Origin: Candidatus Roizmanbacteria bacterium RIFCSPLOWO2_01_FULL_35_13
GTDB lineage: Bacteria; Patescibacteriota; Microgenomatia; UBA1406; GWC2-37-13
NCBI GenBank assembly: GCA_001789635.1
Contig: MGAF01000004.1
Coordinates: 61,105 to 125,104, forward strand
DNA: 64,000 bases
Reading direction: 5' to 3'
The notes under the pieces were generated by a model, which searched no databases, was not told the origin of the DNA, and saw nothing but the letters and a program-made list of their open reading frames with translations. Of this stretch, positions 14,936-56,806 are shown piece by piece (position 1 is the first letter of the stretch; each line of letters begins with the position of its first letter). A program made the translations under genes and the position numbers.

Positions 14936-16372
14936 ATGGACAAATATATACCGGTGATTGGATTAGAGATCCACGTGGAGTTGAAGACAAAGTCCAAGAT
15001 GTTTTGTCAATGCACAGCTGATTATTTTGGAAAAGAACCTAATACAAATACATGTCCGGTTTGTCTAGGAATGCCGGGAGCCTTGCCAGTTCCAAATAAA
15101 AAAGCGATTGAATGGACCGCTTTAATTGGAAGAGCTTTAGCCTGCAAAATAAATAGAGTTTCCAAGTTTGACAGAAAGCATTATTTTTACCCGGATCTCC
15201 CCAAAGGTTATCAGATTTCCCAGTACGATCAGCCTATAGCCATAAGAGGAAGTTTAAAAATTACAAAATCTGTGCCTGTCCACCCTGCAGGTGGGATTAA
15301 GACTTTTAGGATCACACGAGTTCACTTGGAAGAAGATACTGGTAAGCTGTTGCATGTAGGCTCTGATACGTTAGTTGACTTTAACCGGTCAGGCGTGCCT
15401 TTGGTTGAGATTGTAACGGAACCGGATTTTGATAATACCGAAGACGTAAAAGTATTTTTGGAAGAACTTCATACTATTATCCGCTATCTTGGAGTATCGG
15501 ATGCTGATATGGAAAAGGGGAGTATGAGAATGGAGCCGAATATATCAGTAAAAAAGATTACAAGTACCAAGAAACAAGATACAAATATATCTCAAAATTC
15601 AAATGATCAACAACGATTCCGGACCCAACTTCGCCAAGGCTACGATGGGCGAGCAAGTCAGTATGACAAGCTACCAAATTATAAAGTTGAGGTGAAGAAT
15701 ATTAATTCATTCAATTATGTAAAAAAAGCAATAGATTACGAAATTGAAAGACAAGTTGATTTATTAGAAAATGGAGAAACTCCAATGCAAGAGACAAGAG
15801 GATATGATGAAAAAAAAGGAATCACTTATAGTCAGAGATCCAAAGAAGAAGCGCATGATTACCGCTACTTTCCTGAACCTGATATTCCGCCGATGACGTT
15901 TTCCAAAGAGTATATTGAAGCAATTAATATCCCGGAACTTCCCCAGGAAAAAGTAAATAAATATGTGAGGTTAGGTTTAAAAATTAATGATGCATTTATA
16001 ATAACAAGAGACAAAGTACTGAATGATCGCTTTGAGAAAATAATATTAAAGATAAAACAACAGGATAATGTAAAAGTGACAGATGTAAGCAACTTCATTA
16101 TAAATAAAAAAGAAACAGCAAGTTTAACAGAAGAGGAGTTATACAGGAAAATAAAGGAATTTAGAAAACCGAAAGAAATAGATGAAAAAGAATTTGATAC
16201 TTCGATTAAACGTTTAATCGAAGTAAATAAAAAGGCGGTGGAAGATTATAAGAAAGGGAAAGTAAACGCCTTAATGTTTCTGGTTGGACAGGTGATGAGA
16301 GAGATGAAGGGGAAAGCGGATCCTAAATTAGTGAAGGATAAATTGATTCAAATCCTAAACTCTAAATCCTAA
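14936..16372 (+). CDS. gatB: Asp-tRNA(Asn)/Glu-tRNA(Gln) amidotransferase subunit B, carrying repeat-derived insert(s)
   Basis: 'PVIGLEIHVELKTKSKMFCQC...NTCPVCLGMPGALPV'. Confidence 0.95.
   Translation: MDKYIPVIGLEIHVELKTKSKMFCQCTADYFGKEPNTNTCPVCLGMPGALPVPNKKAIEWTALIGRALACKINRVSKFDRKHYFYPDLPKGYQISQYDQPIAIRGSLKITKSVPVHPAGGIKTFRITRVHLEEDTGKLLHVGSDTLVDFNRSGVPLVEIVTEPDFDNTEDVKVFLEELHTIIRYLGVSDADMEKGSMRMEPNISVKKITSTKKQDTNISQNSNDQQRFRTQLRQGYDGRASQYDKLPNYKVEVKNINSFNYVKKAIDYEIERQVDLLENGETPMQETRGYDEKKGITYSQRSKEEAHDYRYFPEPDIPPMTFSKEYIEAINIPELPQEKVNKYVRLGLKINDAFIITRDKVLNDRFEKIILKIKQQDNVKVTDVSNFIINKKETASLTEEELYRKIKEFRKPKEIDEKEFDTSIKRLIEVNKKAVEDYKKGKVNALMFLVGQVMREMKGKADPKLVKDKLIQILNSKS
15567..15667. repeat. 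Repeat-derived in-frame insertion in gatB
   Basis: CCAAGAAACAAGATACAAA (19 nt identical to 23S rRNA 61680-61698) followed by family A-like CAACGATTCCGGACCCAACTTCGCC...AGTATGACAAG. Confidence 0.8.
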
Positions 16373-33884: not shown

Positions 33885-33904
33885 CTACACCTGTGAGGTG
33901 TAAA
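33885..33904. repeat. REP-like palindrome, divergent copy (CTACACCTGTGAGGTGTAAA)
   Basis: Related to CCGTTACACCTGAAAGGTGTAACGG. Confidence 0.65.
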
Positions 33905-33910
33905 TATTAA

Positions 33911-34207
33911 TTAGTTTTCGTAGACTAATTTAAATGAAGAATTTTTAATATTAAAGGTAACTTCCTCAAAAAAATTGAAAAAACCTGTCCGACCTAATAA
34001 TGGTGTTTTTTGTTGTTCAGAGAATTGAATTTCAGTAGAAAAACTTAGTCCATCTGGTAAAATAATTTCAATATTGCGATGTAAAAATGAAGGGATTTCA
34101 ACTCCTCCAATGCCAAAAACTCTTCTAGGCTCTCCTTTCTTAAAATTGATACCGACACTCTTAGCCATATCTACAGGAAATAAATTTACATCAGAACCTG
34201 AATCCAC
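33911..34207 (-). CDS. Retropepsin-like aspartyl protease family protein; true start may be upstream of listed Met
   Basis: '(ISCLV)DSGSDVNLFPVDMAKSVGI...PLLGRTGFFNFFEEVTFN': DSGS catalytic motif and later LLGR. Confidence 0.65.
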   Translation of the reverse strand: MDSGSDVNLFPVDMAKSVGINFKKGEPRRVFGIGGVEIPSFLHRNIEIILPDGLSFSTEIQFSEQQKTPLLGRTGFFNFFEEVTFNIKNSSFKLVYEN

Positions 34208-34272: not shown

Positions 34273-34296
34273 AATTACACATTTCAGGTGTAACGG
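34273..34296. repeat. REP-like palindrome upstream of the RAYT, inverted copy
   Basis: AATTACACATTTCAGGTGTAACGG; reverse complement CCGTTACACCTGAAATGTGTAATT. Confidence 0.8.
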
Positions 34297-34377: not shown

Positions 34378-35058
34378 ATGCCCGGTAGAGATATCAAATT
34401 CGTGAATGGCGGAATATATCACATTTTTAATAAAACTATTGATAAAAGCAGAATCTTTGATGATGAATCCCTTACTTACTTATTTCTTGACCTTTTGAAG
34501 TACTATCGTTCAAGTAAGTCTGTTATTCGCTATTCAAACTATAAAAAGATGCCATCTGATTTAAAAGAATTTTACAATCAACAAATCATAATCAGAAAAT
34601 ATTTTTTTATTGATCTCTATTGTTTCAATATAATGCCGACTCATTTTCATTTGCTAATTAAACAAAATAATGAGGGAGGTATTTCACATTTCATGTCGGA
34701 CTTAATAAATTCATTTACGCGTTTTTATAATATTAAATTTGATCATCATGGATCACTTTTTTTTAAGCCATTTAGAGCCGTACATGTTCGGACAGAGGAG
34801 CAATGTAAGCATGTTACCAGATATATACATTTAAATCGGTATTCGTCGGGATTGGTTAAAATAATTGGTGATATTTTCATTCGTCCAGACTCATCACTTC
34901 CTCGTTATAGCAGTATTGATAAAGATGATTTAATCGAAAAAAAATTTATGCTTAGTTTATTTGGTAATGATATATTAAGATACAAAAAATTTATACTTGA
35001 TCAAGCCGATTATCAAAGGTCCTTAGAAAGGCTCAAATATATTAAAAAATGGCTTTAG
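34378..35058 (+). mobile_element. RAYT: REP-associated tyrosine (Y1/IS200-like) transposase
   Basis: HUH motif 'NIMPTHFHLLIKQ', candidate catalytic Tyr 'SFTRFYNIKFDHHGSLFFKPFRAVHV', 'VTRYIHLNRYSSG'. Confidence 0.9.
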
Positions 35059-35082
35059 ACATTTTTGAGATGTTCCTATGCT

Positions 35083-35106
35083 CCGTTACACCTGAAAGGT
35101 GTAAAA
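35083..35106. repeat. REP-like palindrome downstream of the RAYT
   Basis: CCGTTACACCTGAAAGGTGTAAAA; with flanks TGCTCCGTTACACCTGAAAGGTGTAA is identical to the uvrB copy. Confidence 0.85.
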
Positions 35107-35145
35107 TGGTGGAGGTATACATTCAACCTTAAATTAAAAAAATAT

Positions 35146-44444: not shown

Positions 44445-46517
44445 TTAGGATTCTTTCAATTCATTAACTTTGTCCCTTATTTTAATGGCAAACTCGAAGT
44501 TAAGATCTTCCGCCTGTCTTTTCATTTCAAGCTCCAGTTTTTTTACAGTTCTTTTTTTGTCGTAAGGTGTCAGTGATTCGGTTTTAATATCTTCCAGAAC
44601 TTTTGACGTGTATTCGGTTTTTCTGTCATTAAACATAGAAGCCCGTTCTCCCTCAATAATTTTCTCTCTCACAGGTTTATAAATAGTTTTAGGTTCGATA
44701 TGGTGTTCTTGGTTATATTTGTTTTGGTAGGAGCGTCTGCGGTCTATCTCTTCGACCGCGCCTTTAATTGATTTGGTGATTACATCCGCATACATTATTA
44801 CTTCACCGGTTATATTCCTCGAAGCTCTTCCCATTGTCTGTATCAGCGAAGTTTTTGATCTTAAAAATCCTTCCTTATCAGCATCCAGAATAGCAACCAG
44901 AGAGACTTCCGGCAAATCCAATCCTTCTCGCAAAAGATTAACTCCGATTAAAACGTCAAATTCATTTTTTCTCAGATTATCCAGAATGTCGGATCGTTCT
45001 AGAGTTTGAATATCCGAATGTAAATAACAGGCGCGGATTTTTCTCTCCTTTAAGTATTCGGTTAAGTCCTCGGCAATTTTTTTCGTTAAGGTTGTAACTA
45101 ATATTTTCTCCTTGTTTTTTACACGCTCCTCAACTTCCTTAATAAGATCCTGTACTTCGTTTTTCGCCGGTCTTATAATAATTTGAGGGTCCACGATGCC
45201 AGTTGGACGAACAAGTTGCTCCGTTACACCTGAAAGGTGTAACGGATTGCTACTGCCTGCTAATTTTGTTTCCCACTCATTTGGTGTTGCCGAAACATAT
45301 ATTAAATGCGGTACTGAAGGATAAAATTCGTCAAATCTCAATGGCCGGTTGTCATAAGCTGCATTTAATCTAAAGCCAAAATCGATTAAAGTTTTTTTTC
45401 TGGCATGGTCTCCGTTATACATTCCTCTCAACTGGGGAACAGTCATATGGGATTCGTCAATAAAAACCAGAAAATTGTCTCCGTAAGCCTGTTTAAAATA
45501 ATTAAGCAGGGAATTAGGCGGATCTCCAGGCTTTCTTCCGTCAAAGTAGCGGGAGTAGTTTTCTATTCCATTGACATATCCGACTTCCTTGATCATTTCC
45601 AGATCATAATTGACTTTTCTGATTAATCTTTCGGCCTCGATGGTTTTATTTTGGGCTTTAAGAATTGCAGATTCTTTTTTTAAATCAGTTCGAATCTGCG
45701 CTTCGGCTGATTTGAAAAGATCCGGATTCATTAGATAGTGCTTAGCAGGATAAATAATAATATATTTTAATTGGGTCGATATGGTAGCCAATTCAACACC
45801 CGAGGTTGAATTGCCTTTTGTGACGATCACTTTGCCACTTAGTGGCTCAAATTTAATTATTTCGTTTATTTTTCCTTTTTTTTCGGTCAATCTGTAACCG
45901 AAGTCTTCATAAGCCGGGTAGATGTCCATGTAGTTACCGCGGATGCGGAAAGTTCCTCTTTTAAATTCAAATTCAGACCGGTCATAAAGCAGTTCAATCA
46001 TTCTTCTTGCAATTTTATTCCAATCGGCTGTTTCTCCGATTTTTATTTCTGCAATGAACTTACCATATTCGACAGGTGAGCCGATGTTATAAATGCAAGA
46101 AACAGAAGCAACCACGATAACATCCTTTTGAATAAGAATATTGGTCGTTGCTCTTAATCTTAATTTGTCGATTAGTTCATTAATCTCTGCCTCTTTTTCG
46201 ATATATGTGTCAGTAGTCGGAATATAGGCCTCGGGCTGGTAAAAATCATAGTAGGAGACAAAGTAGGAAACTTCATTTGTCGGGAAAAAATCCCGCATTT
46301 CCTGGTAAAGCTGACCGGCCAAAGTTTTATTATGGGAAATAATCAATGCCGGCATATTAAGATTCTGGATGACATTTGCCATGGTAAAAGTTTTTCCGGA
46401 TCCTGTGACACCAAGCAAAACCTGATTTTTTAGATTGGATTTAATTCCCTGAGTGAGTTTTTCTATTGCCTGTGGCTGATCTCCGGTTGGTTTAAATCGG
46501 GATGAAAGTTTGAACAT
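44445..46517 (-). CDS. uvrB: Excinuclease ABC subunit B, carrying REP-derived codons
   Basis: '[18 protein letters not shown]', '[18 protein letters not shown]', C-terminal UVR motif. Confidence 0.98.
45221..45245. repeat. REP-like palindrome inside uvrB (CCGTTACACCTGAAAGGTGTAACGG)
   Basis: Perfect 11-bp arms; same as RAYT-flanking copy at 35083. Confidence 0.9.
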
Positions 46518-55534: not shown

Positions 55535-56806
55535 TTACTTTTTTAACTCTTCTCTTTCAATCTGCCACAGGCGGTTGTATTTAGCCAGTCTTTCGCCACG
55601 GGCAGAAGCGCCGAATTTGACAAAGTCGGCTTGGACTGCCACGGCGAAGTCGGCGATAAAACTATCGTTAGTTTCACCGGAACGGTGTGAAACTATGTAG
55701 TTAAAATTATTTTTTCTGGCCAGATCGATTACCTGGAGAGTTTCGGTTATTGTTCCGATTTGGTTTGGCTTAACTAAAACTGTCGTGCAGGCCTTTTCAC
55801 GAATGGCTCTTTCCAGTCTTTCCTTATTGGTTGTCAACAAATCATCACCGACCAGATAAATATTCTTGGGAATTTTTTGGTTAAATTTGATCCATTCTGA
55901 CCAATCATCCTCATTTAGAGGATCCTCCAGAACCAATATTGAATAACTTGTTACAAGCTTATTTATAAACTCCATGTATTCATCTACTTTCATTGGATGA
56001 GCTTTATCTTTTATATGATACTTTCCATCAGTGTAAAAATGAGAAGCTGCAACATCAAGTCCTAAAAATACATCAAGTCCAATTTTCAGATTTTTTTGCG
56101 CAATTGTTTCATTTATAATTTCTATCGCATCCAAATTTGTCGGGAAGTCCGGGGCAAAACCGCCTTCTTCTCCGACTGAAATATTTGCATTCCTGTAGGC
56201 TAATACTTTTTGCAGTTCATGATAGACTTCGATTCCGATTTTATACGCTTCAGTAAAAGAATAAGAGGATGACGGGATTACCTGAAATTCCTGGAACTCC
56301 AGATTATTATTGGCATGTTTTCCGCCGTTAATAATGTTGAAAATCGGATCGGGCAGTCGTTCGAGAGGTATTGTGGAGTTAAACATCGATTGGTAAAGAC
56401 TGTTAATATATTTAAAGAGATAGACGTTAAGATCGGCAGCAGCAGCTTTAACCAATAGCTGAGAAATTGTCAGCAGAGTATTTCCACCCAGTTTACTTTT
56501 GTTTTTGGTTCCGTCGGCTTTTATCAACCACATATCAATTTCTTCCTGTTTCAGAGGGGATACACCAATTAACTTGGGTCCAATGAGATCATTAATATAG
56601 GAAACTGATTTTAAAACGCCCATTCCGTTAAAACGGTTCTCATCTTTGTCTCTTAATTCCAAAGCTTCACTTTTACCAATTGAAGTGCCTGAAGGAATTG
56701 AAGTCGTAACGGAAATACCGTTATCAAGGATCAGTTTACCCTCAACAGTCGGATAACCGCGGGAATCGATAATTTCGTATGCGTAAATTTTTTTAATCTT
56801 AGCCAT
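55535..56806 (-). CDS. eno: Enolase
   Basis: 'AYEIIDSRGYPTVEGKLIL', 'INGGKHANNNLEFQEFQVIP', 'VSHRSGETNDSFIADFAVA'. Confidence 0.97.
   Translation of the reverse strand: MAKIKKIYAYEIIDSRGYPTVEGKLILDNGISVTTSIPSGTSIGKSEALELRDKDENRFNGMGVLKSVSYINDLIGPKLIGVSPLKQEEIDMWLIKADGTKNKSKLGGNTLLTISQLLVKAAAADLNVYLFKYINSLYQSMFNSTIPLERLPDPIFNIINGGKHANNNLEFQEFQVIPSSSYSFTEAYKIGIEVYHELQKVLAYRNANISVGEEGGFAPDFPTNLDAIEIINETIAQKNLKIGLDVFLGLDVAASHFYTDGKYHIKDKAHPMKVDEYMEFINKLVTSYSILVLEDPLNEDDWSEWIKFNQKIPKNIYLVGDDLLTTNKERLERAIREKACTTVLVKPNQIGTITETLQVIDLARKNNFNYIVSHRSGETNDSFIADFAVAVQADFVKFGASARGERLAKYNRLWQIEREELKK

Follow-up and report, generated by a model that had tools for sequence, protein, structure and literature searches.

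How does a palindrome that flanks a transposase gene come to be translated as part of a DNA repair protein? The question is raised by a stretch of 64,000 nucleotides, hereafter the window, from the genome of a Candidatus Roizmanbacteria bacterium (Patescibacteria; the relatives named below are likewise Candidatus Roizmanbacteria). In it, uvrB (44445..46517, minus strand) encodes 690 amino acids in an intact frame, scores 911.9 bits against NF003673 and 902.2 bits against TIGR00631 (cut-offs about 750), and carries palindromes of two repeat families, A and B, within its coding sequence. We consider it likely that RAYT-linked REPs of both families inserted into tolerant loops of uvrB, and that they were kept only where the reading frame survived.

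The first palindrome lies in loop S1, a length-variable stretch of UvrB that runs from SATP to EQLxRPTG (45213..45281, minus strand). The first-pass annotation had reported a REP palindrome at 45221-45245, in frame and with 26 nt in common with a RAYT-flanking copy, and each part of that description holds: CCGTTACACCTGAAAGGTGTAACGG is located exactly there, the minus strand of the gene reads NPLHLSGV(TE), and TGCTCCGTTACACCTGAAAGGTGTAA, exactly 26 nt long, occurs at about 35079-35104 and again at 45217-45242. The full perfect palindrome is slightly longer, 27 nt (45220..45246, minus strand), with arms of 12 bp and a loop of 3 nt (TCCGTTACACCT-TTC-AGGTGTAACGGA). A TCCG/CGGA extension (45220-45223, 45243-45246) lengthens the arms from 8 to 12 bp; the other family A copies lack it on one side, and its left CCG is found in none of them. 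Throughout the genome the family A core is present in five places without a mismatch and in 17 copies with at most two, and the reversed-pattern control gives none.

Family A REPs stand on both sides of a RAYT-like Y1 transposase gene in the window (34378..35058, plus strand; PF01797, 26.1 bits, cut-off 23): one 5' of the gene, with one mismatch in its core (34275..34293, plus strand), and one 3' of it, which has the 26 nt identical to the uvrB copy (35079..35107, plus strand). A diverged family A-like palindrome lies nearby (33885..33903, plus strand), and the gene is adjoined by a short ORF (33911-34207) whose DSGSDVNLFP, to judge from the residues, recalls the retropepsin-like aspartic proteases. 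A second RAYT-like gene, on contig C46, has family B (AACCTCGGGTGTT) on either side, with copies about 806 bp apart, and family B-related pairs flank RAYT-like genes at 808 bp in two relatives, G003 and G005. The repeats thus have the features of RAYT-linked REPs, in that a short palindrome is repeated in the genome, copies flank a RAYT-type Y1 gene, and placement is predominantly extragenic. The RAYT-like proteins lie above the PF01797 cut-off; against NF047646, the NCBI RAYT model, they score 40.5-50.3 bits (40.5 for the protein of 34378-35058), under its curated cut-off of 80, and this is one of the weak points of our reading.

The clearest case of a REP insertion in the gene, clearer than S1, is a second in-frame palindrome that the first-pass annotation had missed. 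Loop S2, also length-variable (45759..45836, minus strand; 10-45 aa), comes directly after the UvrB interaction domain, whose PF17757 match ends at residue 231. Within it the family B palindrome CAATTCAACACCCGAGGTTGAATTG (45789-45813, minus strand; coding strand CAATTCAACCTCGGGTGTTGAATTG) codes for NSTSGVEL, and together with a 24-nt 3' tail ending CCAA it forms a complete family B REP (45771..45813, minus strand). In an alignment of 26 family B copies from five congeneric genomes this tail, with the consensus ending CTAA, is common to all, and the uvrB copies have the same spacing. The complete element spans about 43-48 nt and UvrB has 16 residues more here than the solved UvrB structures, which fits a complete REP element. 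The arms and centre of family B are genome-specific, and each uvrB copy follows the variant of its own genome: AATTC..GGGTGTT..GAATT in the window's genome (G000), GGGAGTT in G003 and TCTTT..AAAGA in G002. About six true copies of family B are present in the window's genome, three of them around the C46 RAYT-like gene and one each in miaA and an ORF for a membrane protein.

To what extent S1 is also an insertion can be judged from the UvrB of relatives, for which we aligned 111 distinct sequences and surveyed 110 S1 and 109 S2 loops. Between WE and EQ the window's protein has 16 residues and that of the nearest relative, G003 (UvrB 79% identical), has 9, so that the G003 loop is seven residues shorter; in alignment, the Geobacillus and Bacillus structures have eight residues fewer. 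The in-frame surplus at S1, seven or eight residues where S2 has 16, corresponds to the NPLHLSGV codons (45225..45248, minus strand). NPLHLS is found in none of the 110 relatives' UvrB, and a search of the same 110 sequences for relatives that agree with the window in S1 length and residues, the result named beforehand as telling against an insertion, found none. At the same time, the earlier claim that the SATP-VEQ link is usually short stands for G003 and the solved structures, but not across the 110 UvrB, in which the loop ranges from 14 to 71 residues (counted from the first residue past SATP up to EQL). Because S1 is length-variable in UvrB, the polarity of the S1 event is not certain; in a tree built with the loops masked, the window's UvrB falls in a six-member clade (support 0.998) in which both short and long loops are present, and the ancestral S1 length is therefore uncertain. 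The gene had also been called essential, which goes too far: UvrB is important in repair but generally dispensable for viability.

Perhaps, then, the S1 palindrome was not inserted at all, but arose on the spot through snap-back (quasi-palindrome) repair that copied the native GVTEQ codons, or is the remnant of an older long loop ending HxGVxEQ, its likeness to family A being partly coincidence. Long-loop relatives do have an S1 that ends HxGVVEQ (for example GGTGTAGTGGAGCAG in L018), and the palindrome's right half encodes GVTE, which coincides with the GVxEQ motif native to them; only part of the palindrome need therefore be inserted. The absence of the arm extension from other family A copies points the same way, as does the absence of the conserved REP tail after the S1 palindrome, which, with a net gain of only 21 nt, is another weak point of our reading. 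A complete REP at S1, as at S2, was considered and rejected, the tail position being occupied by native coding sequence. Nonetheless, the 26 nucleotides identical to the RAYT-flanking copy span the loop and a whole arm, the TTTC loop and the CGG that starts the tail match family A in its canonical orientation, and the short loops of the nearest relatives (G003, G006 and G015) lack GV. Formation in place is, on this evidence, improbable. The original proposal, that a REP landed in uvrB without breaking the frame, is thus supported, with the qualifications that the polarity is uncertain and that the palindrome was perhaps inserted only in part. What we envisage at S1 is capture of REP sequence, possibly by way of short homology with native GGTGTNNNGGAGCA-like codons, by which the palindrome may have come in without its tail. 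No two strains were found of which one has the insert and the other lacks it, and the UvrB of the nearest relative is different at 21% of its residues.

Regardless of how the palindromes arrived, both S1 and S2 are placed in loops by an AlphaFold2 model of the window's UvrB and by alignments to PDB structures. In the model, whose mean pLDDT is 83.8, residues 421-430 (S1) are predicted to be coil with a pLDDT of 64, and residues 231-250 (S2) coil with a pLDDT of 48-49. The first-pass annotation had proposed to see whether the S1 residues fall on a surface loop; to this the model and the PDB alignments give a partial answer, lower-confidence predicted coil in the one and a loop in the other.

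The same loops are filled in other members of the group. S2 is occupied by the genome's own family B variant in G002 and in G003, by nested hairpins in G004, by degraded palindromes in G001 and G015, and by a different, longer palindromic element in G040; S1 palindromes are also present in G008, G040 and G013. Inverted repeats scoring at least 9 are found in 3 of 110 S1 loops and 4 of 109 S2 loops, against 1 of 1110 control windows elsewhere in the gene, and those scoring at least 10 in 4 of the 219 UvrB loops against none of the 1110 control windows, counts that give no formal probability because the sequences are related. In the uvrB of G008 (L174), several CCCCGTACC/GGTACGGGG hairpins code for an S1 region of 71 residues and leave the frame intact, and the uvrB of G040 (L057) has palindromic elements in both loops, GTAGGGAACGCAGATCTGCGTTCCGTAC at S1 and a GCGAAGCAATCTC-type element at S2. 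One might go further and regard S2 as a recurrent landing site of this clade, at which resident REPs are exchanged or updated in concert with each genome's own variant and a RAYT thereby goes on rewriting a part of a repair protein, an idea that we find conceivable but doubtful.

Could the inserts have been retained because they alter UvrB, for example its repair rate or its contact with UvrA, and so produce a mutator or regulated phenotype? The repeated filling of both loops by different palindromes in related genomes would be consistent with this, as would the many intragenic REPs in repair genes (PMC3733652). Yet the loop sequences decay and are unrelated between species, both insert sites are predicted to be low-confidence coil, and loops of MiaA and RdgB are filled likewise, so that UvrB is not special. 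We considered selection on UvrB function and found no support for it, and we give retention for an altered UvrB little credence. In the MiaA loop (C50:11359 in G000; L053, L176-L180), a family B REP is present in G000 and G001 and decayed in G002 and G005, while G003 and G004 have unrelated palindromic elements. In the RdgB loop after YLxTCxxFY (L181-L186), congeners have different palindromic elements, of the PESNNDSGQARMT, IDSRFRGNDK and NPEG types.

Codon choice might also make a palindrome by chance in an ordinary variable loop, and native palindromes do exist. The RdgB/HAM1 palindrome at C48:14704 (LLHLKGV), a candidate for a further in-frame family A REP, proved native, since relatives match it in length and nearly in codons, and coincidence therefore does occur; an enolase palindrome (55669-55695), likewise rejected as a REP, is the conserved SHRSGET motif. 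For the S1 palindrome, however, dinucleotide shuffles of the 64-kb window contain no match to CCGTTACACCTGAAAGGTGTAACGG with up to three mismatches, random synonymous recoding of the S1 peptide yields all 12 complementary positions in only 4 of 200,000 trials, and in 400 synonymous recodings of the whole uvrB the longest arm is 10, against 12 observed. Given also the exact family match to RAYT-flanking copies and the presence in uvrB of a second, independent REP, chance is a highly improbable explanation. An assembly or binning artefact that put the repeat into uvrB is scarcely credible even in a fragmented metagenome assembly of 61 contigs, given that a repeat of 26 nt is rather short to cause assembly errors, that the reading frame continues intact to either side at 70-79% identity to relatives, and that the relatives' independent assemblies have the same kind of S2 insert.

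The general course of RAYT-linked REP insertion can thus be sketched as follows. RAYT-like enzymes, if they behave as RAYT biology suggests, would copy single-stranded hairpin DNA. Insertions that fell in a loop, kept the frame and brought no stop would survive, and all others would be purged; the added residues would be disordered loop extensions, roughly neutral for UvrB. If most insertions in genes are lost, strong palindromes should be scarcer in coding DNA. Counted over all families, the 340 kb of coding sequence hold 8 and the 66 kb of non-coding sequence 18, a density about 12 times lower in coding DNA, in a 406-kb genome sample that includes the window, itself chosen for its palindromes. 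One further palindrome, CTTCGATTAAACGTTTAATCGAAG, occurs twice in this sample (window 16198-16225 and L195:15884-15913), one of the two within an ORF (STSIKRLIEV). More broadly, length differences in conserved proteins of Patescibacteria can be mobile-element sequence.

How do these elements compare with known systems? The right end of IS608-type elements has a hairpin with a TCAA tetranucleotide at a fixed 3' distance. The family B hairpin, with its own 3' tetranucleotide at a fixed distance, appears to resemble this IS200/IS605 arrangement; families A and B differ in that no autonomous element is present here, and the role of the tetranucleotide is one that we infer. The resemblance to GTAG REPs and REPINs (RAYT/TnpA-REP) extends to short imperfect palindromes that flank RAYT-type Y1 genes, to genome-specific variants, and to a placement that is mostly intergenic and sometimes intragenic (PMC3733652, PMC8049555). 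Unlike GTAG REPs, however, neither the 26 family B copies nor the family A copies have a conserved GTAG beside the palindrome, family B has the fixed-distance 3' tail ending CTAA, and the RAYT-like proteins of the window's genome fall under the NF047646 cut-off. Among the open-licence literature we found no paper on RAYT in Patescibacteria/CPR.

In-frame palindromes in conserved protein genes are well documented for the RPE of Rickettsia, and Gmk is active as a protein that contains an RPE insert (PMC2229807). According to Di Nocera et al. (2013), REPs lie within genes in many species and repair genes are frequently among these, the uvrB of R. conorii being one, with two single REPs at different sites; the authors speculated on a mutator or regulated phenotype for REP-tagged repair proteins (PMC3733652). 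Rickettsia RPE-1 and RPE-4/RPE-6 (CGTC REPs) are like the repeats of the window in being in-frame palindromes in conserved genes including uvrB, so that an in-frame REP, or a REP in uvrB, is in itself nothing new (PMC2229807, PMC3733652). The CGTC/RPE elements are of other sequence and from another phylum, and they are listed without transposase genes, whereas families A and B flank RAYT-like genes. What is new here is that the phenomenon is found in another lineage, that each inserted family is linked with a RAYT-like gene of its own genome, that the inserted copy matches its genome's own variant, and that the same loops are repeatedly filled in relatives. In-frame palindromes, best known from Rickettsia, are in this way extended to Patescibacteria and tied to RAYT-like genes of the same genome, and with that tie the origin and the possible neutrality of the inserts become testable.
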